Origin: a bacterium
Lineage (GTDB): Bacteria; Verrucomicrobiota; Verrucomicrobiia; Verrucomicrobiales; Akkermansiaceae
Direction of reading: 5' to 3'
NCBI GenBank assembly: GCA_018222765.1
Contig: JAAEZT010000020.1
Coordinates: 23,371 to 69,066, forward strand
Length of the DNA stretch: 45,696 nt
The position numbers and the translations under genes are program-made. A model generated the notes under the pieces. It searched no databases. It was not told the origin of the DNA and saw only the letters and a list, made by a program, of their open reading frames with translations. Shown here in pieces: positions 8,203 to 44,240 of the stretch. Numbering within the stretch: position 1 is the stretch's first letter; every line of letters begins with the position of its first letter.

Positions 8203-10290
8203 TCACCCTTTCTCTCCAAGAAAGTAGGCTGTCAAGGTGCCGTCCCCATTCGACGACACGAGGGTTTTCCCATCGGCGCTGTATGCCAATTTTTCAGGCG
8301 CCCGATAATTGCCAATTTCCTCGATCACTTTCAGTTCCTCTTCAACAACTTCCCCCAAAACGATCTTGCCTGTTGACCCAGACCCGACGATACCAGCCCA
8401 GTAGCGCCCGGATGGATCACCGGTCACATGCCTGAAGGTATTCTTGAACTTGTATACCACCTTAATGGCATCATCCCCTTCTGGGCAAATGATGGCATCC
8501 CGGACACCGGAAATGCGAATTTTCACCTCGGGATCTTCAGCTTTAATCTTTTCCAGAAAATCCAGCACATCTTCACCCATCGCGATCAACTCGTCCGTCG
8601 CGGCCTTGCGCACCTCAAACTGATCATCAGCCATCTTAAGGACAAGCTCGTTGATTCGCTCTTCATCCACTTCTACCCTCGCCTGCTCTTCTGGGAGAAA
8701 CCGACCCCAAGCGCTCGTCTTGCCGACCGAAGCAATAAGCGAACGCGCACTTCCAACCAAAGCGATCGACGCGGGTTTCTCTTTCGGAATCATCAACATC
8801 GCCAACGGTTGCTTTGTTTTAAGAGACCAGAGCCTCACCGATCCGTCATCCGAGGACGAAGCAAACACCTCTCCCCCGGGAGCCACTGCAATATCGGTAA
8901 TCTTTTTAGAATGCCCTCGGAAAGATTGAATCTTTCCTCCATTCATCAGAGCCCATTGACTGGCAACTCCGTTATTTCCACCAGTAATAATACTGCGACC
9001 TGTCGGAGAAAACGACAGGACATTCACCTGGGAACCAGTTCGAATTTCCCTCTGAATCTGCCCATTTTCAACCTTTCTCAACTTAACCCCTCCATTCTCC
9101 ATCCCGATTGCAAGAAGTTTCCCATCAGGAGAGGCCGCGAGGCTGTAGATCGTCTGATTTTCCTCGATCACCTTGGACTCCTCTTTTCGATCCAAATCCC
9201 AAACATGAAGATCGTCACCAACAGATGAATAGACCTTTCGCCCCTTCGCTCCTGCCGCTACGGTATCAAACCCGTTCGGGGCGATGGGGATACCCAGACT
9301 CGGGATAATCCTTTTGCCTGTTTCCACATCGTGCAGATGCAAATGTTGATCTCCACCTGAAATCAATATTTTCCCATCCGTGGAAAATATCACCGGAGTA
9401 TGACGGGAACCGGCAACGGCAATCTTCCTGACTTCTTTTCCGTCCTTGGCATCAAGGAGGTGGAGGTATTGATCCCCATCCGCAATCGCCACCAATTGAC
9501 CATCGGGTGACCACACCACTACTTCGCCTTCCTTCTCGAGCTTCACCTTCCAAACTTCTTTCCGCGTTTTGGAATTAAACACGCGGACATACTTATCATC
9601 ACTGGCCATCGCAAACTGCTTCCCGTTTGGGGAGAGAGCCAACGTGAAAATATCGTCGTAATCCTTACTCGTCTCGAGACACTTGCCGGTCTCGACATCC
9701 CATACCTTAAACTTGTTGTCGGAGGACCCCGTGATCAAGCGCGTCCCGTCTTCCACAAAGATGGCAGTACAAATACGGCCCTTATGCCCCTCGAATTTAC
9801 GAATCTCTTTTCCATCATGCGGGCCACCCAATTCTCCAGCATCCAAACTCCACAAAATCGCAATCTTATCATCGTCCACACCAACGAAACGTTCTCCATC
9901 CGGATGAAGGGCGACTCGCAAGACATCATCCGAATGCTGGTATGTCATCAACTCTTCTCCCGTCGCCAAATCAAATCGAACCACCATATTACCTCCTGTT
10001 CCCACCAAAAACTCCTTATCTCCGGGAAGCACCCTCATTCCCCACATGGAACCGCTCCCTGCTTTCTCAAACCTCCTGACCAGCTTCCCTGTCTCAATTT
10101 CCCACAGCGCCGCATAGCCATCCCGCGAGGAACTCAGAACGTGTTTCCCATCAGAGAGGCTTATAATCTCCGCAAGACTTCCTGTATGTTGAAATCCGGC
10201 GAGCCCCAACACCTTCTCCTCTCTCAAAATCCCGGCCAAGGACATCCCGACTAACCAACACGAGGTTCCTAGCGTAACCACCAATTTCAT
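8203..10290 (-). CDS. Secreted WD40-repeat beta-propeller protein with HEAT-like insert
   Basis: A 695-residue exported protein with a signal peptide (MKLVVTLGTSCWLVGMSLAG). WD40 repeats fill residues 30-530, shown by recurring closers such as DGYAALWEIETGK, DNKFKVWDVETGK, DQHLHLHDVETGK and DDGSVRLWSLKTK, giving about 11-13 blades and so probably two propellers. Residues about 550-600 (DDQFEVRKAATDELIAMG) match the short HEAT-like segment that PVC WD40 proteins often carry. No catalytic residues are visible; a binding or scaffold role in the periplasm is an inference. ATG 10290 was chosen over a TTG two codons upstream. It lies back to back with the broken sugar-dehydrogenase gene, 41 bases away, and its end touches ppc. 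Confidence 0.85.
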   Translation of the reverse strand: MKLVVTLGTSCWLVGMSLAGILREEKVLGLAGFQHTGSLAEIISLSDGKHVLSSSRDGYAALWEIETGKLVRRFEKAGSGSMWGMRVLPGDKEFLVGTGGNMVVRFDLATGEELMTYQHSDDVLRVALHPDGERFVGVDDDKIAILWSLDAGELGGPHDGKEIRKFEGHKGRICTAIFVEDGTRLITGSSDNKFKVWDVETGKCLETSKDYDDIFTLALSPNGKQFAMASDDKYVRVFNSKTRKEVWKVKLEKEGEVVVWSPDGQLVAIADGDQYLHLLDAKDGKEVRKIAVAGSRHTPVIFSTDGKILISGGDQHLHLHDVETGKRIIPSLGIPIAPNGFDTVAAGAKGRKVYSSVGDDLHVWDLDRKEESKVIEENQTIYSLAASPDGKLLAIGMENGGVKLRKVENGQIQREIRTGSQVNVLSFSPTGRSIITGGNNGVASQWALMNGGKIQSFRGHSKKITDIAVAPGGEVFASSSDDGSVRLWSLKTKQPLAMLMIPKEKPASIALVGSARSLIASVGKTSAWGRFLPEEQARVEVDEERINELVLKMADDQFEVRKAATDELIAMGEDVLDFLEKIKAEDPEVKIRISGVRDAIICPEGDDAIKVVYKFKNTFRHVTGDPSGRYWAGIVGSGSTGKIVLGEVVEEELKVIEEIGNYRAPEKLAYSADGKTLVSSNGDGTLTAYFLGEKG

Positions 10291-10331
10291 AGCCAAAAAC
10301 TACATGGAATCCCAGCCTCCGCGAGCCTTCT

Positions 10332-10901
10332 TTGAATTCCACCCACCTCGCAACTTGCCACGCCGCGCCCTCCCAGCATTCTCCGCTCATAACTCGATTA
10401 CTCTTTTCTCTCTTCGCCACTCCATTCCTGCTTCTTACCGAAAACACCTTCCCATCGGACGAACATTTTAGAGTCCATTCCGTGGCTGACGAATTAGTAG
10501 ATGCCATGGAAATCGCCGTCACATCTGATGGAAATTTCCTCGTCATCGAGAGAACTGGCGCGGTTAAATTGGCCGAGATAAAATCTGGGGAAGTCAAAAC
10601 CATCGTCACCCTCGAAGTCGCCCTAGGAAAAAAGAACACACCCGCGAATGCGGATTACTCGGAATCAGCCTCGACCCCAAATTCGCGCAAAACAATTGAA
10701 TCTATCTCTACTATTCTCTCAAAAAAGAATCCAAGCATCGCCTCGCCCGGTTCACTCTCTCAGACGACAAACTCGTCGATGAAAAAATCCTCAAGAGAGG
10801 CGCTGGTGTGTGGAGCAAACAACCAATGCCACCATCCACAGCACCACATCGAGGATACTCTGCAGATGCTGGAAGCCAGCCTGCAATTCCCAGTCAAATA
10901 G
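10332..10901 (+). pseudogene. Decayed PQQ-type sugar dehydrogenase / cytochrome c gene
   Basis: An open frame covers the stretch, but it is a patchwork. Residues about 45-100 in the first frame read like a glucose/sorbosone dehydrogenase start (DAMEIAVTSDGNFLVIERTG). After the A-run near 10629-10634 the homology moves to another frame, ECGLLGISLDPKFAQNN, where TGA replaces the expected Trp codon (about 10697-10699) before IYLYYSLKKESKHRLARF. The same frame then jumps from DEKILKR straight to GAGVWSKQPMPP, a typical cytochrome c ending, so several hundred codons are missing. A second shift returns to the first frame for HPQHHIEDTLQMLEASLQ and the stop. Two frameshifts, one nonsense codon and a large internal deletion make a functional product very unlikely. 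Intact relatives are secreted PQQ-like propellers fused to cytochrome c. Confidence 0.8.
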
Positions 10902-10942
10902 CCCGCACTTGCTTCTTCCGCAAAAAAAACTATCCTATAGCC

Positions 10943-11119
10943 ATGCGTTTCACATTTCTGACTCTTGCTTCCTTGTTCTTGATCTCCTGCGGCGGCTCCA
11001 ACCAAGTCGCCGAGCGCAGAGCTGTCCCACCTCCGGGATCAGATGGCGATATGCCCTGGAACGTTCCCATCGAAGGCCAAGGTGGTGGACCTCTCAGCGG
11101 AATTTTGGAACGACGGTAG
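10943..11119 (+). CDS. Small conserved-looking lipoprotein
   Basis: A 58-residue predicted lipoprotein: a short signal peptide with lipobox LISC (Cys16) followed by GGSNQVAERR and a polar, glycine- and proline-rich tail with DMPWNVPIEGQGGGPL. I do not recognise a named domain. It lies 24 bases before the kinase gene on the same strand, so the two may be cotranscribed. A TTGCTT ... TATCCT pair just upstream (10909-10936) would place transcription at or very near the ATG, hinting at a leaderless message, but this is weak. The open frame extends upstream only through pseudogene remains, so ATG 10943 is the sensible start. Confidence 0.65.
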   Translation: MRFTFLTLASLFLISCGGSNQVAERRAVPPPGSDGDMPWNVPIEGQGGGPLSGILERR

Positions 11120-16007: not shown

Positions 16008-16217
16008 ATGGCCCGATATTTTCTTTTGCTGATTCCCCTGCTCGTTCCCGCCTGTCAATCAGTCTCGATTGCCGACCAGGCCCAGCTTTCCAAGCCTGCA
16101 ATGAGCTTCGATAATTCCGGAGCCCGCCTTCAGGAATGCGGGTTAACCTCCCAGGTCGAGAAAGGGCGCACGGTCACCGGAACATCTTCCGGAGGGGGCT
16201 GCGCCTCATGCCACTAA
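16008..16217 (+). CDS. DUF4266-like small lipoprotein ending in CASCH
   Basis: A 69-residue lipoprotein. The lipobox is VPAC (Cys16). The body resembles DUF4266 proteins: a QLSKPAMSF segment, a stretch rich in Glu and Gly, and a GGGC near the end. DUF4266 normally ends in GGGCGCN; this one ends GGGCASCH, residues 65-69, which is an exact CxxCH haem-attachment pattern at the extreme C-terminus. DUF4266 genes commonly precede a DUF3570 outer-membrane barrel and a thioredoxin-like gene, which is the order seen here. Function is unknown. A metal- or thiol-handling role is plausible from the cysteines; haem attachment is possible but the following residues usually packing a haem are absent. Confidence 0.7.
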   Translation: MARYFLLLIPLLVPACQSVSIADQAQLSKPAMSFDNSGARLQECGLTSQVEKGRTVTGTSSGGGCASCH

Positions 16218-16233
16218 TTTTTGTCAGCAGAGC

Positions 16234-17322
16234 ATGAAATCGCACACCATCCTTCTCTCACTTCTCCCAATTTATTCCAGCCTGGCCAAGGGCGATGATA
16301 CTAATTCTCGGAGACATCTATTCACCGGCCTTCAAAACATCGACGTTGAATACGAAGGGCTCTTTTCCTCGAATCTCAATGTCCAACGAGGATCGTTTTC
16401 CTACCAACAAAAGCATGAAAAGTGGACCTTTGCTCTTTCCTATTTCCAGACTGAATACGGATTGGAATACAAACCCTTCGCTCCGCTGGGCGGTTCAGAC
16501 AAACGCCTCGAAGAGTCAAATCACCAAGGCAGTCTCTCCATCGGCTACACATTGCAGAACAATATAGAAACTTCGGTGTCGGTCACGTCCTACGACGGAT
16601 TCAGCGACTACCGGTCGATTTGGATCGGAGAGTACTACCGCCAGGCCTTTGACTTCCCCGGGTCTGGGTATTTCGCCCCCGATCCCAAAGGCTTCAGCAT
16701 TTCCAATAGCTGGGGCTGGGATCCTCAAATCGGAACCAGCCTGAGCATCGATCTCTCTTATTCCGAAGACACCATTGCCCCGGGATGGACTTTTGGTTCA
16801 CCGGCAAATGACCTTCTAAAAAACCGCATAGTCTCAGTTCGTTGGGAACAGGCCATCAATCCAAGCCTCAAAACAGAAACGTCGTTTTACTACAGCGACA
16901 TCACCGACAGGGAACCACGCCTAAACCTCCAATCCTCCTGGAACTATGCTCTCACCAACGAAATCACCCTGGGTGCACAACTCGGCGGGTCACGTGAAGA
17001 ATCAGATTTTGATTCCTTCTACGGCGGTCTCTCTCTGACATACGAAGTCAACGACTACTTGTCTCTCAAGTTCAACGGGCGCCTTTACTCCGACTCAGGT
17101 GAAATCGAGACCTCGGGCTTCAATTCAGCAGCTCCAGGAATTAACACTGCAGAAATCGGAATCTCCGCACTCATCGAACATGGTGACCACGCCTTCCAAT
17201 TGGGGATATCGAGCTTCACCAACAACTACAAAGACACCGACTCCGATAACGAATTTTTCACCAACCTATACGATGACCGGGATTGGATCACGATCCGCGC
17301 CGCTTACACCTTTGAGTTCTAA
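16234..17322 (+). CDS. Outer-membrane beta-barrel protein, DUF3570-like by context
   Basis: A 362-residue exported protein with signal peptide (HTILLSLLPIYSSLAKG). The rest is alternating strand-like segments with aromatic girdles, for example GSLSIGYTLQNNIETSVSVT, RIVSVRWEQAINPSLKTETS and GGLSLTYEVNDYLSLKFNG, and it ends in AAYTFEF with the terminal Phe recognised by the BAM machinery. I estimate 14-16 strands. It starts 17 bases after the lipoprotein stop, so the two are surely cotranscribed. The placement after a DUF4266-like gene suggests DUF3570, but I cannot confirm that from motifs alone. Confidence 0.8.
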   Translation: MKSHTILLSLLPIYSSLAKGDDTNSRRHLFTGLQNIDVEYEGLFSSNLNVQRGSFSYQQKHEKWTFALSYFQTEYGLEYKPFAPLGGSDKRLEESNHQGSLSIGYTLQNNIETSVSVTSYDGFSDYRSIWIGEYYRQAFDFPGSGYFAPDPKGFSISNSWGWDPQIGTSLSIDLSYSEDTIAPGWTFGSPANDLLKNRIVSVRWEQAINPSLKTETSFYYSDITDREPRLNLQSSWNYALTNEITLGAQLGGSREESDFDSFYGGLSLTYEVNDYLSLKFNGRLYSDSGEIETSGFNSAAPGINTAEIGISALIEHGDHAFQLGISSFTNNYKDTDSDNEFFTNLYDDRDWITIRAAYTFEF

Positions 17323-17337
17323 TATAAACCACCCCCA

Positions 17338-18303
17338 ATGCTCAAACCATTCATCGTCGGCCTCGGATTGATCTCAACGCTTTCCGCAACCCCTCCCGTC
17401 GACACTCCCAGCCAAAATGTTCTCTTCGAGACCTTCAGCGGGGCCGCATTGTCGCCCGACTCACTGGAAAACTACGAAGGCAAAATTATTATTATCACTT
17501 ATTACACGCCTTGGTGCCCAACTTGCGCATCAGTAGCTCGGCAAGTTGGCAGGGACGTCAGCAAGCACTTCGTAGACAATGGAGGAGCCAGCAGCAACGG
17601 AATCGAAGTCGTCTCTCTTCTCCTCTCGACAGAAGTTAATGGAGGCTCGAATGACTCGACCACGATGAGCATCGCCAATCTCAATCACTATCATAAGGGT
17701 GGTTTGGACTCCACGAACACGCGCATGGATCCTCGTGAGGGCTTCGGATTTTTCAGAGGTCAAGCCGTCACCTCGTGGCCGGTTGAAGACCGCCGACGTG
17801 TTGTCATCATTAATGGCTCTCAAAACTCGGCCAGCCACGAACCCTGGGAAATTCTTTACAACGAACAATTTCCAAACTCCGATACCATGATCGAAACGGT
17901 GAATTCAGTGATCCAGGCTCCCCCATTGGCGACATTCGAAGAATGGGCCGGCGGTTACACTTTTCCACTTGGTCGGGAGACCCCAAACGCTGACCCCGAT
18001 TCGGATGGAGCTACCAATATCGAGGAATTTTTCGCCGGCACCAATCCTATCAGCGGGCTATCCCGCCCCATCTTGCGTCTCGTAAAAAAGCCATCCGGTG
18101 TCGTTTTTAAATTCCAGACTGCCACCGACCGTGTAGAGATCCCTTTTGCCATCCAAGGAGGCTCCCTTGACAACTTCATCACCCTAAATCCGGACGAAAA
18201 TGACATTTCGACCTCTGCTCTTAGCGAGGATCTGCAGGAAGTTTTGATCGACCTACCTTCGACCTCCGGACCATTTTTCAGGATTTTGCTGACACATCCA
18301 TAG
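17338..18303 (+). CDS. Secreted thioredoxin-fold protein with calcium-loop and C-terminal FFR module
   Basis: A 321-residue exported protein. After a signal peptide (about residues 1-18), a TlpA/thioredoxin-like domain carries the redox motif WCPTC (59-63) in YYTPWCPTCASVARQVG. Residues 150-200 still look like thioredoxin core (RRVVIINGSQ). A loop D-P-D-S-D-G-A-T-N-I-E-E (about 219-230) followed by GTNP is an EF-hand/thrombospondin-type-3-like calcium site, and the chain ends in a short beta domain closing with GPFFRILLTHP. That loop plus FFR tail is a common ending of secreted verrucomicrobial proteins and may act in sorting. The gene follows the barrel gene by 15 bases. A role in thiol exchange with the cysteine-rich lipoprotein is an inference. 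Confidence 0.8.
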   Translation: MLKPFIVGLGLISTLSATPPVDTPSQNVLFETFSGAALSPDSLENYEGKIIIITYYTPWCPTCASVARQVGRDVSKHFVDNGGASSNGIEVVSLLLSTEVNGGSNDSTTMSIANLNHYHKGGLDSTNTRMDPREGFGFFRGQAVTSWPVEDRRRVVIINGSQNSASHEPWEILYNEQFPNSDTMIETVNSVIQAPPLATFEEWAGGYTFPLGRETPNADPDSDGATNIEEFFAGTNPISGLSRPILRLVKKPSGVVFKFQTATDRVEIPFAIQGGSLDNFITLNPDENDISTSALSEDLQEVLIDLPSTSGPFFRILLTHP

Positions 18304-18324
18304 AAGATTGTCAGTAGCTGATTT

Positions 18325-18342
18325 GGGGGTTAAATTACCCCC
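18325..18342 (+). promoter_or_regulatory. Hairpin over the ribosome-binding region of the next gene
   Basis: GGGGGT (18325-18330) and ACCCCC (18337-18342) are perfectly complementary around a TAAATT loop and end four bases before the ATG at 18347. In RNA this would fold into a GC-rich stem exactly where ribosomes should bind, so it could hold down translation or act as an RNA switch. There is no T-run, so it is not a terminator. Confidence 0.4.
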
Positions 18343-18346
18343 GATT

Positions 18347-20050
18347 ATGCGTCTTTTCATAGGTTTTCTTGTTTGCGCTCTCTTAGGCAATGCCTTCGGC
18401 GCACCCAAGTTTATTGCACCTGACGACTCCTACCCCCTCATCCGAAGAGATCGCATTCCCATCGATGTCGATGGAATCAACAACCTTGCCGATCAACTGG
18501 CCCTCACCGCAGATGGCCCATTCTCCAAATCCGGCAAAGATCTCCACACCCGCGCCCGGGCATTGGCTCTCAGCCAGCGCTTATCGCCCGCCCAGCCACG
18601 GGCCCGTGCGATCATCCAAAGCCTGAGCAACAACGAAAGCCGTCCGAGTACGAATAGGAGAGAAGTCGGCGAAGCACAGGGCGCCATTCAGCGAACCGCC
18701 GAATGGCTCGTTAAGCTCCCACCTGGTGAGGAGGGGTATTTGCTGGGCCAACTTCTCATCGATATCATCTCCGCACGACAGAAAGACCACCCCCTGGTTT
18801 CCAGTCACGAAGTTGACAATCAGGAGGCACGTTGGAGAGGCTTGATCGCTCCGCTCGAAAAATTCGAAAATAGGGTTGAGGACGCGAAGCCTCGCGGTCC
18901 TGAGCTTCAATTCAAAGCCGACGCGGTCCTTACGACCGCACCCTTCCTCACTTACCCTAGCGGAAAAAACAGCATTCTACAGAAGGTGAGCCTCATCATC
19001 AACGATGAAAGAAACGACGGGGATGGCAATCGAGGAATCCTTTTCCGCCCCAAACCCAATTACGATGCCCGATCCACTGTCAGCAGCGTCGAGCGCTATT
19101 TTCAAAGCATCAAAAAAATCCTACCCCAAAATAAAAGCCTCACCATTGATACGGGTAAATTTCAATATGCCGCTGACAACGGAAGCAATCTTGCCGCTCC
19201 AGCAGCGATCCTCGTTGACGCAGCCCTCACCGGTCGGCCACTAAGAAGAAACACCTATCTTTTCGCCAAGCTGGAGGATGATGGCTCCCTCAGCCGACCC
19301 CACAAGGCTTGGCCAATCTTTCTCGAACTAGCCAAGACTGCACCCCCAAGGGGAAGCCGCCTCATTGTGCCGCCGGGAGCTGCCGACGACCTAAGATCAC
19401 TTCTCGTTCTAGAAAAAGCTGACTTTTTCGTAAATTACGAAGTCATCGGCGCAAGCCATTTCGACGAGACCCGTTCCCTCTTTTACGAGGATGGCCAGAT
19501 CGATCCACAACTCGCTGCCGCCATAGAGAGCTATCAGGAAATTTGGGAGAAAGCCCTTGAGTCCACCTCATTACAGACATTCGTAAGCCACAAATCGGTC
19601 AAGGAACGACTCGCCACCGTAGTGGGACATTCAAATCTCCACCTTTCGGCTTCCTTTCTTGCCCTGCAAGGAAACAACCGTCCTCCCCACTTCTCCGAAA
19701 AGATGCTCGCCAGGGAACTCAACCGCTGTCTCGAACCGCTCTCGAGTTTTCGCTTTCAATACGGAAAGACCAAAGCCACCGACTTCCGAAAACTACATGA
19801 CCGGATACGCGAACGCTTCGATCCCCTCGAGCGACGAATCGGGAACAAAGAGAAGCCCCTCTATGACGAGACCCTCGAAATCATCAAAAAACTCAAAGGC
19901 CTCGCGCGTGACATCAACAAAAGTTTTCTGAACAAGAAACGCCCAGACATTGTAGCCTTCAGAATCTTCCAGGGCGAAGTCACCGCCTTCCGTGACAGGC
20001 TAATGATTACCTCAGGTGATCTAAAACCCCGGAAACCGAAAAAAGACTGA
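18347..20050 (+). CDS. Secreted protein with possible Lon-protease-like (S16-type) domain
   Basis: A 567-residue exported protein with signal peptide MRLFIGFLVCALLGNAFG. I recognise no named family over the full length. Residues about 205-380 resemble the proteolytic domain of Lon: a stretch aligned with the Ser loop (DNGSNLAAPAAILVDAALTG, compare DGPSAGxxxxxALxSxLTG), then GRPLRRNTYLFAKLEDDGSL (compare GNPVRxDVAMTGEITLRG), then SRPHKAW in place of GGLKEK, and RLIVPPGAADDL in place of TVLIPxENxxDL. A serine and a lysine lie within one to two residues of the catalytic dyad positions, so activity is uncertain. The remainder is helical and charged. ATG 18347 gives a proper signal peptide; a TTG at 18308 would not. 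It ends 2 bases before the convergent hypothetical gene. Confidence 0.6.
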   Translation: MRLFIGFLVCALLGNAFGAPKFIAPDDSYPLIRRDRIPIDVDGINNLADQLALTADGPFSKSGKDLHTRARALALSQRLSPAQPRARAIIQSLSNNESRPSTNRREVGEAQGAIQRTAEWLVKLPPGEEGYLLGQLLIDIISARQKDHPLVSSHEVDNQEARWRGLIAPLEKFENRVEDAKPRGPELQFKADAVLTTAPFLTYPSGKNSILQKVSLIINDERNDGDGNRGILFRPKPNYDARSTVSSVERYFQSIKKILPQNKSLTIDTGKFQYAADNGSNLAAPAAILVDAALTGRPLRRNTYLFAKLEDDGSLSRPHKAWPIFLELAKTAPPRGSRLIVPPGAADDLRSLLVLEKADFFVNYEVIGASHFDETRSLFYEDGQIDPQLAAAIESYQEIWEKALESTSLQTFVSHKSVKERLATVVGHSNLHLSASFLALQGNNRPPHFSEKMLARELNRCLEPLSSFRFQYGKTKATDFRKLHDRIRERFDPLERRIGNKEKPLYDETLEIIKKLKGLARDINKSFLNKKRPDIVAFRIFQGEVTAFRDRLMITSGDLKPRKPKKD

Positions 20051-40449: not shown

Positions 40450-42987
40450 ATGCGATTAATTGCAATTTTGATTTTAAGCTTTGGAGTCATCAGCGCGGCC
40501 CCTATCGACTCGAAACTCGGCGATTTCAGCAAGAGCAAAAATCCCAAAGCGCTCCCGGTAGGGTGGAAGATCAAAGAGGGTAAAAAAGCGGAAATCAAAG
40601 TCTGGGAGCAAGAGGAGCAATCGGGATTCATTTTGCCCACCGGCCTCACGCTGACCCGCACAATCAATTTCCAGGCCCTCACCGAAAAGGAAAGCAAGGC
40701 GGGAGGTGAATGGACCACCTTCCTCGGCTTCGATTCTCTAAAAAGTCCCGGAAAGGCCAAGCTAACTCTCTCTGACGATCAAAACAAAATCGTCGCCAGC
40801 ATCCTCACCACCCCAAGTAAGTCCGGAAGGTTCTGGGCGGAGATTCCTCACGAGAAAACAGCGCAGCTTTTCGGCAAGAAGCTCACCCTTCAACTTACAA
40901 TTTCCGGAGGTGGCGTTCAAAGCCAGGGAGTTCACCTCTGCCGTATCAATAATAAACCGGGCAAACACCTCTTCGGTCGCTCCAATGGTGGGCTTGGGCC
41001 CGACAAGCTCAATGCCGGCTCTCTCGGATTCTCCGCGATGACGGAACACGCCCAGACCATACTCCCTGTCATGGAAGTTCGGAAAGGACTCGCCGCAGAC
41101 AAGGCCGGGCTCAAGCCCGGTGACCGGATTATCGAAGTCAATCGCCAACCTCTCCCTCTCAATGACCTGAAACCCGGTTGGGATTGGTTTCACCACAGCC
41201 ATGAATCCACTCTGGGAAGAGCGGTTCTCGCCGCCGCCTCCCCCAAGAGACGCGAAGACATGCGCAACATCGTCGAACTTGGAGTCTTGAGAGAAGGGAA
41301 ACTCGAGCGACTTCAATTGAAGGTTCCCCGCGCGATGAACTTTTCCAACCTCGATCCCGGAAAAGACAAAACCGCTGACGTTCTTCATCAGGATCTCATT
41401 GCCTATCTCGTTAAAAACCAACGTCCCGACGGATCGTGGAGCCGCGACCCCATTCGCACCACCTTCTCCGCGCTCGCTCTCATGGCCACACGCGATACAC
41501 AGCATACCGAACGCATAAAAAAGGCCGTCGACTTTCTTCTCAACCGCTACCCCGAAGCGGAAAACTTCGGGAACCTCGGCTTCTGGCATTCTGCTTACGC
41601 GGGGATCCTGTACTCGGAATACTACCTCGCCAGCGGAGACGATAGAGTCCTGGGGCGCATGCAAGACATTCGCGACTGGGCCCTTACCGGTACGCACACT
41701 TCGAAGTGGGGCATGCCTGCTCTAGGCCACGGCATTGGCGGACTTCCATACGGCCAAAAAGCACTTATGGCTCCCCTCGCCCACCTCATCGTCTTCGAAG
41801 CCCTCGCCAAGCGATGCGGTATGAAATCCAAAATTTGGGAAGAACTGACTCCTTACATCGAACACAGTTGGTCCGACCCGAAAACAAAAAATGGTCACGG
41901 CGCCATGGGATACAATGCCTCCTACAAAGACCTCGGCGAATTTTGGAGCCGTAGCGGGCTTTGCGCGATGGCTTGCGAACTCCGGGGCGAACGTCCCGAC
42001 ATGCGCGACGCGCTCACCAAGATCATGCATGAACGCCACCCGTGGATCCGTAATTCTCATGCCTATGGCGAGCCTGGTGGAGCGCTCGGATTGCTCGCTC
42101 TCAATCTCACCAACCAAGACACCTACCGCGACGTCATCAAACAATACGCCTGGTGGTTCGCCCTCGCCTGGGAACCCGGATACGGCTTACGATTTTCCAC
42201 GCCGCACATGGGCGCGCCTTACATGGGCGAAGACGATCTCGTCAGTGCAACCTACGCCCTCGTCTTGGCCGCACCCAACAAAACCCTCCACCTCACCGGG
42301 GCCAGGGACAGCAAGTGGATGAACGTCTCCGCTCTCACCACTCCGGTCTCCCCCGTCCGAATCAAGCGCAGCCGTGATGGCCTCGTCTCACTGGAGGGAA
42401 CGATTCCCGGCAACCGGGTTCACTACACCGTGGACGGCTCGCAACCGACAAAGGAATCACCCAAGTTCCAAAAACCCTTCCCATTTGACTCCGGAAAAAT
42501 TTCCGCTCTCGTCATCGATAAGGTAGGAAACTTAGGACCCATCAACTCCAAAACCTTCGGCCCCGCTCCCGCCAAATGGAAAATCATCGCCGCCTCCGGA
42601 CACAGCGACCCGGCCGAAGCCATTCGGCGCGCCTCACGAAGCATTGATGGTGATCGCAACAAATCTTGGCTGACTGACATCGGCGAAGGAACCAAAGGAT
42701 ACCCTCACTATCTCGTCATTGACTTCGGAGAAGCGAGAACGATCAAAGGGGTGAAAATCCATTTCGCTGATCAAAAACGAACCCCCTCGAAATGGAGCCT
42801 CAAAAGCAGTCAATCAACAGATCAATCGCCACTTCTTCTCGGAGAAAAAAGTGCAACATCCTGGGAACCGGAGCAAACATTCAAGTTGGATGAAGAAGCC
42901 AAAGTCCGCTACCTGCGATTCGAAGCGGTGAATGATGGCGAACCCGACAAAAAAAGCCTTTTCGTGCGGGAAATTGAAATCCTTTAG
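40450..42987 (+). CDS. Secreted PDZ / alpha-alpha toroid (DUF6288-like) / CHB-HEX / discoidin protein
   Basis: An 845-residue exported protein with signal peptide (MRLIAILILSFGVISAAP). A beta-rich N-terminal domain is followed by a PDZ domain at about 185-290 (DKAGLKPGDRIIEVNRQPL). Residues about 305-625 are helical repeats with a terpene-cyclase-like toroid look (QRPDGSWSRDPIRTTFSALA, GALGLLALNL); this combination resembles DUF6288. A chitobiase C-terminal-like segment lies near 640-690 (VHYTVDGSQPTKESP) and a discoidin-type domain from about 710 to the end (FGEARTIKGVKIHFAD). No catalytic residues are evident. The carbohydrate-binding modules point to a polysaccharide-related role. The stop overlaps that of the convergent nuclease-fold gene. 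Confidence 0.8.
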   Translation: MRLIAILILSFGVISAAPIDSKLGDFSKSKNPKALPVGWKIKEGKKAEIKVWEQEEQSGFILPTGLTLTRTINFQALTEKESKAGGEWTTFLGFDSLKSPGKAKLTLSDDQNKIVASILTTPSKSGRFWAEIPHEKTAQLFGKKLTLQLTISGGGVQSQGVHLCRINNKPGKHLFGRSNGGLGPDKLNAGSLGFSAMTEHAQTILPVMEVRKGLAADKAGLKPGDRIIEVNRQPLPLNDLKPGWDWFHHSHESTLGRAVLAAASPKRREDMRNIVELGVLREGKLERLQLKVPRAMNFSNLDPGKDKTADVLHQDLIAYLVKNQRPDGSWSRDPIRTTFSALALMATRDTQHTERIKKAVDFLLNRYPEAENFGNLGFWHSAYAGILYSEYYLASGDDRVLGRMQDIRDWALTGTHTSKWGMPALGHGIGGLPYGQKALMAPLAHLIVFEALAKRCGMKSKIWEELTPYIEHSWSDPKTKNGHGAMGYNASYKDLGEFWSRSGLCAMACELRGERPDMRDALTKIMHERHPWIRNSHAYGEPGGALGLLALNLTNQDTYRDVIKQYAWWFALAWEPGYGLRFSTPHMGAPYMGEDDLVSATYALVLAAPNKTLHLTGARDSKWMNVSALTTPVSPVRIKRSRDGLVSLEGTIPGNRVHYTVDGSQPTKESPKFQKPFPFDSGKISALVIDKVGNLGPINSKTFGPAPAKWKIIAASGHSDPAEAIRRASRSIDGDRNKSWLTDIGEGTKGYPHYLVIDFGEARTIKGVKIHFADQKRTPSKWSLKSSQSTDQSPLLLGEKSATSWEPEQTFKLDEEAKVRYLRFEAVNDGEPDKKSLFVREIEIL

Positions 42988-44240
42988 CGCACAACTTTGA
43001 GCCTGAAGAACTTTTTATTCGATATCGGCAAGGTCACCGTTCTCATTTTGAAACCATCGCTCACCGGCCCGTCGCTGACCACTCCACCCGACAACTCAAC
43101 GAAGTCACTGAGATCATCCGAAACTTGAAGTTCATAGGTCAGCGCAGATCCCTCTCTCACCGGGAAACTCACAACATCTTCCCCAGAGACGATTGCCACT
43201 TCCGGAAACTTTTCCCGACTCCCCGCAACCGTCGGATCGGTCCCGAAGGCATACTCGAGTAAATTGACTGAAGCATCACCATCAGGATCAGCTAGTGCAC
43301 CCCAAATTGATTCGCCCTGGGCATACTCTTGTGCCGAAAATCTCTCTACTACCCAGCTTTCATAATCGTCGAGCTCCGGAGGAAAGTCATAGGTTCGCAT
43401 CACTGCCATATGCTGCATTTGAGAAGCCCCGCTGTCTCCAGCTAAAACAGGAGCCACTGCAGAGAGCGGAGTGAAGACCCGGCTATCAAAGACAATCCCA
43501 TTGGCATAACTCCGCCCGCCCAACACTGTCGGCACTTCAAGGCTATTCAACTCAGGTTCCACCATCACCCAGTCGTAGGGCCTTGAACGCCCCGCATTGG
43601 TATCACCATCGCCATTCCGATCCACCGGCCAGGGCGCAGTCACCTTCACGAGATGATCGAGTTCATTTAAAAAAGACTCCGTGCGATTCTGCGCATTAAA
43701 GTCACCTCCAATCACAAGGTAATCATCAACCGGAACATTCGCCTCGATGTATTCCGCCAATTGCCTTGCCTGCCCAACCCTGCGCGAAGCGCCACTCGAA
43801 CTGGCCTTAAAGTGAACACTAATTACCCATAGATTCTTTTCGCCGGGAACATCGATCTGCGCCCAGACAAATTCGCGATTGGACATATCGTCGTCATCCC
43901 AAATCCCCGATTGGAGAATCGGAAATCTACTAATGACCCCATTTTGAATATCTCCCGAGGGCTTTCCTTCTTCGACATACGAAAACTCCGCACCAAAGGC
44001 ATCCGTTACAAAAGCCCGCAATTGCGCATCGGTATTGCTCCCGAAATTGAATTCCTGAATCAGAACAATGTCGGGCTTCAATCCCTTGAAAATCCTCGTC
44101 CCTTCTCCGGGATCATAAGACTGGCCATTTCCACTGCTAATATTCGCCGCCATGATCGTAACCTCCTCCCCGTTCAGCGGAAGTATTCCAAATAACATGT
44201 AGAACAATCGTTTCACTCCGAATCTCTGCGTCAGATCCAT
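42984..44240 (-). CDS. Secreted endonuclease/exonuclease/phosphatase-family protein with FFR tail
   Basis: A 418-residue protein with an N-terminal hydrophobic signal (VKRLFYMLFGILPLNG). The EEP (DNase I-like) domain fills about residues 25-290: ANISSGNG, VLIQEFNF with the metal-binding Glu, WVISVHFKASSSG, VIGGDFNAQN with the Asp-Asn pair, RPYDWVMVEPEL and the final QHMAV with the His. Residues near 318-335 hold D-P-D-G-D-A-S-V-N-L-L-E-Y followed by GTDP, a calcium-type loop, then a short beta domain ending KKFFRLKVVR. The same loop and FFR tail occurs in the thioredoxin-fold protein of this window. Probable activity is hydrolysis of extracellular DNA or of a phosphodiester; substrate unknown. 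Confidence 0.88.
   Translation of the reverse strand: MDLTQRFGVKRLFYMLFGILPLNGEEVTIMAANISSGNGQSYDPGEGTRIFKGLKPDIVLIQEFNFGSNTDAQLRAFVTDAFGAEFSYVEEGKPSGDIQNGVISRFPILQSGIWDDDDMSNREFVWAQIDVPGEKNLWVISVHFKASSSGASRRVGQARQLAEYIEANVPVDDYLVIGGDFNAQNRTESFLNELDHLVKVTAPWPVDRNGDGDTNAGRSRPYDWVMVEPELNSLEVPTVLGGRSYANGIVFDSRVFTPLSAVAPVLAGDSGASQMQHMAVMRTYDFPPELDDYESWVVERFSAQEYAQGESIWGALADPDGDASVNLLEYAFGTDPTVAGSREKFPEVAIVSGEDVVSFPVREGSALTYELQVSDDLSDFVELSGGVVSDGPVSDGFKMRTVTLPISNKKFFRLKVVR

Follow-up and report, generated by a model that had tools for sequence, protein, structure and literature searches.

Results

A conserved envelope cassette of three genes

The subject of this study is a set of three adjacent genes in a stretch of 45,696 nucleotides from an Akkermansiaceae bacterium (assembly GCA_018222765.1, contig JAAEZT010000020.1, positions 23,371 to 69,066), which is called the window as a whole. 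The genes encode a lipoprotein, an outer-membrane beta-barrel, and a secreted thioredoxin-like protein, and it is strongly supported that they form a conserved exported cassette. As judged from sequence comparison, the cassette of relatives very probably carries selenocysteine (Sec, U) in one or two of its proteins, and the two CxxC motifs of the window would be cysteine versions of these Sec sites. The features are listed below with their evidence, including open reading frame (ORF) calls. G000 is the window's genome, while the other G and L numbers denote genomes and loci of relatives.

16008-16217, + strand: lipoprotein, 69 residues, lipobox LVPAC, tail GGGCASCH (ORF calling)
16200-16211, + strand: codons TGC GCC TCA TGC for CASC in the lipoprotein tail; in 9 relatives the first of these is TGA
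16234-17322, + strand: outer-membrane beta-barrel, 362 residues, 16-stranded, no cysteine (ORF and AlphaFold2 model)
17338-18303, + strand: secreted thioredoxin-like protein, 321 residues, motif TPWCPTC (ORF and predicted structure)
17515-17526, + strand: codons TGC CCA ACT TGC for CPTC in the thioredoxin-like protein
17538-17552, + strand: place of the candidate selenocysteine insertion sequence (SECIS) hairpin, not formed in the window (TCGGC-AAGTT-GGCAG; comparison with relatives)

The cysteines of the window lipoprotein are the lipid-bearing Cys16, Cys44, and the tail pair; C16, C65, and C68 are invariant in all 16 aligned rows when U is read as C. The thioredoxin-like protein has two cysteines as redox residues. 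The paired cysteines that a preliminary description of the window had noted in two proteins are located in the lipoprotein tail and in WCPTC. The outer-membrane barrel of that description was also upheld by structure prediction of the barrel alone. The AlphaFold2 model has 16 strands (pLDDT, predicted local distance difference test, 83.4) and one conserved helix (126-139), with the motif GFxDYRSxW just before and within the helix; Foldseek matched it to OmpG and to other barrels generally (best E 3.6e-10, TM-score 0.53). Fifteen of 18 barrels are free of cysteine, and the other three have cysteine only within the first 18 residues. The thioredoxin-like protein is predicted to have a thioredoxin fold with a WCxxC site, ResA being the best structural match (E 5.4e-7). 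Its C-terminus is a DPDxDG stretch followed by a beta domain, perhaps a sorting or surface domain, which occurs in many other Verrucomicrobiota proteins. In a profile search of the phylum with the thioredoxin-like protein, 219 of 387 genomes gave a match, and among the matches listed nearly all cover the C-terminal domain only. In the window, this stretch and domain are found at 17980-18303 and also at 42984-44240. Pfam, NCBIfam, and PDB sequence searches with single window proteins returned little.

The gene-neighbourhood search proposed in the preliminary description revealed that the lipoprotein-barrel-thioredoxin-like order recurs in many Verrucomicrobiota genomes and is therefore not due to chance. 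The barrel is present in 27 of 386 genomes of the order (E 1e-10 or better). Twenty-one named barrel loci are titled Verrucomicrobia of various ranks, many of them Akkermansiaceae or Verrucomicrobiales, and the titles also include one Roseibacillus, one Akkermansia muciniphila, and one Kiritimatiellales. The locus titled A. muciniphila (L101, CAMAYN010000012.1) carries the cassette and has the same sequence as G679, and its title looks doubtful. Five loci correspond to genomes as follows: L103 to G618, L112 to G486, L101 to G679, L105 to G528, and L109 to G522. In a clustering of neighbouring genes, whose identities were not looked up, no family outside the cassette was common to its different settings.

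In-frame TGA codons at the motif cysteines

In relatives, the thioredoxin-like gene appears split in ORF calls, and the break is a TGA codon at the first Cys of the CxxC motif, often accompanied by another at the second. Twenty-eight thioredoxin-like genes were read, the window's included. An in-frame TGA replaces the first Cys codon in 18 of them (G008, G024, G007, G020, G021, G005, G022, G012, G009, G011, G018, G003, G015, two G050 copies, L103, L112, and G643), and 11 of the 18 have TGA at both positions (UxxU). The other 10 have Cys (window, G017, the second locus of G050, L101, L105, L114, G355, L202, L203, and L205). In the lipoprotein, TGA stands at the first tail Cys in nine of 29 genes (G022, G012, G009, G011, G018, G026, G003, G015, and G643), and 20 have Cys there, G024 being counted as Cys from its last 14 residues only. 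G026, whose thioredoxin-like gene meets a contig end, and L109, with no such gene seen next to its barrel, are omitted from the thioredoxin-like counts; L204 (contig end), L115 (different layout), and five loci present twice were also left out of the counts, as was the lipoprotein of the second G050 locus, whose Cys form is visible. In L059 (G050), two tandem thioredoxin-like genes, both USTU, follow one barrel (8744-10797).

Thus, in both families an in-frame UGA occupies a position that is Cys in homologues, as expected for bacterial selenoproteins. None of the selenoprotein models of NCBIfam release 20 was matched by 16 members of either family (E up to 0.1). TGA ends 66 of 224 ORFs of 250 residues or more in the window and 31 loci of relatives; therefore, TGA is not reassigned.

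A hairpin at a fixed place downstream of the TGA codon

A stem-loop with an AGUU, AGGUU, or similar loop was found at a fixed place after the first TGA. When the T of TGA is counted as 0, the loop starts at base 28 in the thioredoxin-like genes and at base 26 or 27 in the lipoprotein genes. The hairpin of the lipoprotein genes lies largely or wholly past the stop codon, while that of the thioredoxin-like genes lies within the coding region, where coding also constrains the sequence. In the UxxU genes, a single hairpin is 25 bases from one UGA codon and 16 from the other, both spacings being allowed.

G occupies the second loop position in all of the first 23 Sec sites and in one of 12 Cys sites. 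The stem cells of these Sec sites are paired in 109 of 115 cases, as against 36-76% when the register is slid by 1 to 6 bases; a loop length of 4 or 5 was picked for best pairing, alike in every register. The corresponding values for Cys sites are 25/45 and 7/15. A rule demanding G at the second loop base and a stem of 3 or more at the fixed place was then satisfied by 25/25 TGA sites and 0/22 Cys sites of the first set and by 1/2 TGA sites and 0/7 Cys sites of later loci, giving 26/27 versus 0/29 of the sites tested. Among the sites read after the register was fixed, all three thioredoxin-like Sec sites (L103, L112, and G643) pass, while the single lipoprotein Sec site (G643) and all 17 Cys sites fail; the stem limit was chosen with the letters of L103 and L112 known, so that only G643 and the seven last Cys sites are fully blind. 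The published layout of bacterial SECIS elements (a loop of 3-9 nucleotides with G in the first two places and a spacing of 16-37 nucleotides; PMC13188914, legend of Fig. 2), applied with at least 5 contiguous pairs and without its energy limit, fits 22/25 Sec sites and 3/22 Cys sites.

Covariation was then assessed against 500 shuffles. For 13 thioredoxin-like hairpins with 5-base loops it was 0.694 versus 0.225, a value reached by none of the shuffles, and both the share of paired cells (81.9%) and the number of cells changed on both sides exceeded all of them. For eight hairpins with 4-base loops (six lipoprotein and two thioredoxin-like; the G022 and G011 lipoproteins were excluded by loop length) it was 1.077 versus 0.319, again reached by none; 97.9% of the cells are paired, and no measure is reached by more than 8 of 500 shuffles. 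When hairpins were sought in single sequences and compared with shuffles, Sec and Cys sites could not be told apart (median p 0.12 and 0.23); they are separated only by fixed position, loop rule, and covariation.

Distribution of the selenocysteine machinery

Genes for Sec synthesis and insertion, as expected for selenoproteins, were found in the relatives. Over the cut-offs, 58 relatives contain selA in 37 cases, selB in 37, and tRNASec in 40, with 60 tRNA candidates scored per genome. The tRNASec family also passes in five of 14 control genomes, so some of these matches are other long tRNAs. ARAGORN reported a tRNASec with the anticodon tca in all 10 loci tried (G003, G004, G009, G011, G012, G015, G018, G022, G024, and G050), nine of which are from Sec-form genomes.

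Eighteen genomes have at least one Sec form (G003, G005, G007, G008, G009, G011, G012, G015, G018, G020, G021, G022, G024, G026, G050, G618, G486, and G643). All of them have selA and/or selB over the cut-off, with selA in 17 and selB in 16. Seven of the 10 genomes having only Cys forms of the cassette have neither gene over the cut-off (G355, G679, G528, G708, G701, G651, and G639); the genomes of L114 and L115 are outside this count. For the association of selA with the Sec form, Fisher p is 0.0007, and outside the window's genus (4/4 versus 1/8) it is 0.01, both values being uncorrected for kinship. Taken with the TGA positions and the hairpins, Sec decoding of the in-frame UGA in the relatives is strongly inferred.

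The cysteine copy of the window

The window's genome has selA, selB, and tRNASec matches, all over the cut-off. Since both genes of the window have Cys, nothing in its cassette is a selenoprotein in this species. Where G008 (Sec) has GCC CGC CAG, the window has GCT CGG CAA; both encode ARQ, and the window is without one stem pair and the loop G. Synonymous differences thus break in the window the predicted hairpin that G008 keeps.

In a barrel tree of 26 rows, the window, G008, and the Cys-form G017 form one clade, whose sister is the Sec-form G024, so the Cys of the window is most simply derived. G008 groups with G017 (support 97/82), apart from the window, and the locus identities are 94.6% for G008-G017, 93.4% for window-G017, and 92.5% for window-G008. 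The fewest changes on this tree are four for the thioredoxin state and two for the lipoprotein state. The pattern of the three genomes may mean that Sec was lost twice, that it was lost and then regained, or that exchange took place. The codon differences after the site, for which no formal rate test was made, are 35 synonymous and 27 non-synonymous between the window and G008, 36 and 26 between the window and G017, and 19 and 22 between G008 and G017.

Relation to flavinylated and other known systems

Systems composed of ApbE, DUF3570, DUF4266, and a thioredoxin-like protein (DsbD) have been described as flavinylation systems (eLife 2021, PMC8238504, as far as consulted). The preliminary description had likened the cassette to this set without ApbE. 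The absence of ApbE was confirmed; neither the window nor any of 25 cassette loci from relatives gave a tblastn match to apbE at E 1e-3, while two control loci matched. The likeness to DUF4266, DUF3570, and thioredoxin stands as a resemblance, and membership in DUF4266 and DUF3570 does not, as their Pfam cut-offs are not reached. The window lipoprotein has no Pfam match to DUF4266 (PF14086); one of 16 members matches (E 0.0036) and should fall short of the cut-off, and a profile comparison gives 93% probability, but only over the signal peptide and a Leu..Met stretch. The tails are CxxC or UxxC in 28 of 29 lipoproteins, once UxU (G643), in contrast to the CxC tail of DUF4266. The window barrel scores 11.8 bits against DUF3570 (PF12094; cut-off 25), two of 18 barrels match (best E 0.0048), and hhalign gives a probability of 59%. 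A true DUF3570 had no tblastn match at E 1e-3, and a string fitting the flavinylation motif [S/T]GA[S/T] occurs in one of 18 barrels and in none of the other 17. On Pfam, profile, and tblastn evidence, identity of the cassette with the DUF4266/DUF3570 set was therefore rejected. The cassette thus differs from the flavinylation systems by lacking ApbE, by falling below the Pfam cut-offs, and by having Sec forms.

In G643 (L198), a single residue separates the two TGA codons of the lipoprotein tail GAGUTUSSN; the CxC of DUF4266 is spaced in the same way, which hints that the two lipoprotein families may be linked. A canonical DUF3570-ApbE-DUF4266 operon lies on contig 65 of the window's genome (L146, 219000-236000, genes 8731-11048), with Pfam E-values of 3.3e-59, 1.8e-58, and 1.1e-17, respectively. 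Thus, two kinds of system coexist in the same genome.

The thioredoxin-like protein shares its fold and WCxxC site with the thiol oxidoreductases ResA, TlpA, and DsbE, and differs from them in the extra C-terminal domain, the Sec forms, and the operon with a barrel. Selenoproteins known as Prx-like 2 or Prx-like thiol:disulfide oxidoreductase have the same thioredoxin-type UxxC or UxxU (PMC2398784 and PMC13188914, in the parts consulted). Compared by description only, the thioredoxin-like proteins and the GOS Prx-like 2 family (UxxU) may have members in common. None of 16 thioredoxin-like proteins matches SelP_N at E 0.1.

The preliminary description had put the system forward as a candidate for an undescribed one. 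In keeping with this, no earlier description of the three-gene cassette was found in the literature searched, which includes parts of PMC8238504, PMC13188914, PMC9312934, PMC2398784, and PMC1088965; supplements and figures were not covered, so that an earlier report is possible. The searched text of PMC8238504 has no word beginning with "selen". In the searched text of two prokaryotic selenoprotein reviews neither "lipoprotein" nor "verrucomicrob" occurs, and the visible rows of the review tables contain no DUF3570 or DUF4266 entry and nothing like the lipoprotein.

The Lon-like neighbour

The ORF calls agree with the preliminary description that four exported proteins are encoded with gaps of 16, 15, and 43 bases, the fourth being as follows.

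18347-20050, + strand: neighbouring secreted Lon (S16)-like protein without the catalytic Ser motif (alignment)

Its ATG is at 18347, and its open frame opens earlier, at TTG 18308. The 43-base gap (18304-18346) between the thioredoxin-like and Lon-like genes contains GGGGGTTAAATTACCCCC, a possible hairpin.

This gene is a neighbour, outside the cassette. Its place as a fourth module part was not sustained. Among 27 genomes of the window's genus, the Lon-like gene occurs in 24 and the barrel in 16, and nine carry the former but not the latter; these include several incomplete genomes, and the Lon-like gene of G001, G004, and G010 is close to a contig end. That the Lon-like protein works as part of a four-gene module is hardly credible: the Lon-like gene and the barrel do share a contig in 14 of the 16 same-genus barrel genomes, but nine same-genus genomes have the Lon-like gene alone, at four syntenic sites the Lon pair directly adjoins an R3H gene with no cassette between (G006, G014, G016, and G025), the orientation is opposite to that of the cassette in five of the 14, the barrels of G012 and G050 come without a Lon-like match, and a GGGGG..CCCCC repeat lies inside the gap.

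In many relatives, the Lon-like genes are a tandem pair encoding secreted proteins. The pairs aligned are as follows.

L049:4919-8464, tandem Lon-like pair (alignment)
L062:2218-5763, tandem Lon-like pair (alignment)
L047:4069-7624, tandem Lon-like pair (alignment)
L066:5112-8683, tandem Lon-like pair (alignment)

In all four, the S16 motif DGPSAG is intact in one copy and missing from the other, as it is from the window protein, so that the pair is perhaps one of enzyme and pseudoenzyme. All three intact copies scanned match Pfam Lon_C, and a homologue of the intact copy is on another contig of the window's genome. The window protein aligns to the Lon (S16) protease domain through the intact paralogue in relatives; it differs from the protease in having DNGSNLAAP in place of DGPSAG, with loss of the catalytic Ser, and matches no Pfam family.

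Discussion

I consider it rather probable that the cassette of the window is the cysteine form of a selenoprotein envelope operon with a redox role. Of the preliminary description, the conserved exported module with paired cysteines is retained and the Lon-like part is not; the correspondence between cysteine and selenocysteine had been missed. Most likely, the ribosome of the relatives reads UGA as Sec in the thioredoxin-like protein (WUxxC or WUxxU), and it would do so also in the lipoprotein tail (GGGUxxC, once GUxU) in one clade and two further genomes, with the hairpin just downstream of UGA guiding the insertion. The secreted thioredoxin-like protein may accept electrons from a periplasmic donor and transfer them to the lipid-anchored tail, whose place would be at or inside the barrel. 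The barrel is free of thiols and so would serve as a conduit or platform for a selenol/thiol pair acting at the outer membrane. This relay is drawn by analogy with the flavinylated DUF3570 systems, whose DUF4266 also ends in a Cys pair (PMC8238504, in part); Sec or Cys pairs may take the place of their covalent flavin. I read the cassette as a flavin-free, selenium-based equivalent of the ApbE/DUF3570/DUF4266/thioredoxin redox systems; that it transfers electrons at the outer membrane is a guess. The more specific picture, a selenium-based conduit across the envelope from a Sec thioredoxin to a Cys/Sec lipoprotein tail docked in the barrel, is offered only tentatively.

Several observations weigh against this reading. 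The window itself has TGC and no UGA in both the lipoprotein and thioredoxin-like genes, and G000, G017, and G522 hold selA and selB yet have only Cys forms. Sec decoding is deduced from nucleotide sequence. The machinery is incomplete over the cut-offs in some Sec-form genomes: selA was not found in G022, selB was not found in G007 and is a fragment in G015, and tRNASec passes in 12 of 15 searched, not in G007, G020, and G026. The G643 lipoprotein breaks the fixed-place hairpin rule; it has an 8-pair stem with the loop GGUC at base 31, which fits the published bacterial layout. In the thioredoxin set, two of five covariation measures are not above the shuffles (310 and 246 of 500). The link to DUF3570 and DUF4266 is weak, and no electron donor was identified beside the cassette, the genomes not having been searched for one.

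The same selenoprotein operon might instead handle a soft metal (copper, mercury, or silver) or a metalloid with its tail and thioredoxin pair, the barrel letting the metal or metalloid in or out at the outer membrane. A flexible Gly-rich U/CxxC tail beside a barrel would suit metal capture, several prokaryotic selenoproteins are tabulated as metal or mercury proteins (PMC13188914, in the part consulted), and 25 clusters of the flavin systems include a ferrous iron transporter (PMC8238504, likewise in part). This is unlikely, as the thioredoxin fold with UxxU/CxxC points to electron transfer and the different settings of the cassette share no neighbour family, although a metal gene could be missed, as the neighbours were not identified singly. 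Somewhat less likely still is thiol-disulfide quality control, in which the thioredoxin-like protein would repair or isomerise secreted proteins with the lipoprotein as its membrane anchor or partner and the barrel as a client or porin. The closest structural matches do include ResA and DsbE-type thiol oxidoreductases, and the C-terminal domain is common to many other proteins of the phylum; however, the barrel, with its near absence of cysteine, is no thiol client, and linkage to a single type of barrel speaks for a dedicated partner.

It is very improbable that the TGA codons are not Sec and represent pseudogenes, assembly errors, or another reading of TGA. The record titles of the loci are all metagenome assemblies, and the codon changes after the site between G008 and G017 show no strong bias. 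Against this, TGA falls precisely on the first motif Cys at 27 sites, and synonymous codon changes outnumber non-synonymous ones between the window and G008. Twenty of 23 Sec genes continue to TAA or TAG with no further TGA met; of the other three, G009 and G003 stop at a TGA close to their full length, and the reading of G022 was carried beyond its likely TGA stop. The hairpins, their covariation, and the Sec machinery also argue against it, as does the use of TGA as a normal stop in the same loci.

If the selenoprotein reading is true, one or two selenoprotein families would be added from Verrucomicrobiota, a phylum named in neither of the two prokaryotic selenoprotein reviews in the text searched. 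One of them would be, to my knowledge, the first outer-membrane lipoprotein selenoprotein, with a SECIS largely or wholly outside the reading frame. Sec-form genes are probably cut short in databases because ordinary ORF calling splits them at TGA. The three genomes of the window, G008, and G017 amount to a natural experiment, one operon with Sec in one genome and Cys in two, in which the predicted hairpin is intact in G008 and broken by synonymous differences in the window and G017, so that both what Sec costs and what purpose it serves in the envelope are testable. On the conduit picture, the cassette would be a selenocysteine answer to a task that other bacteria meet with covalently bound flavin.

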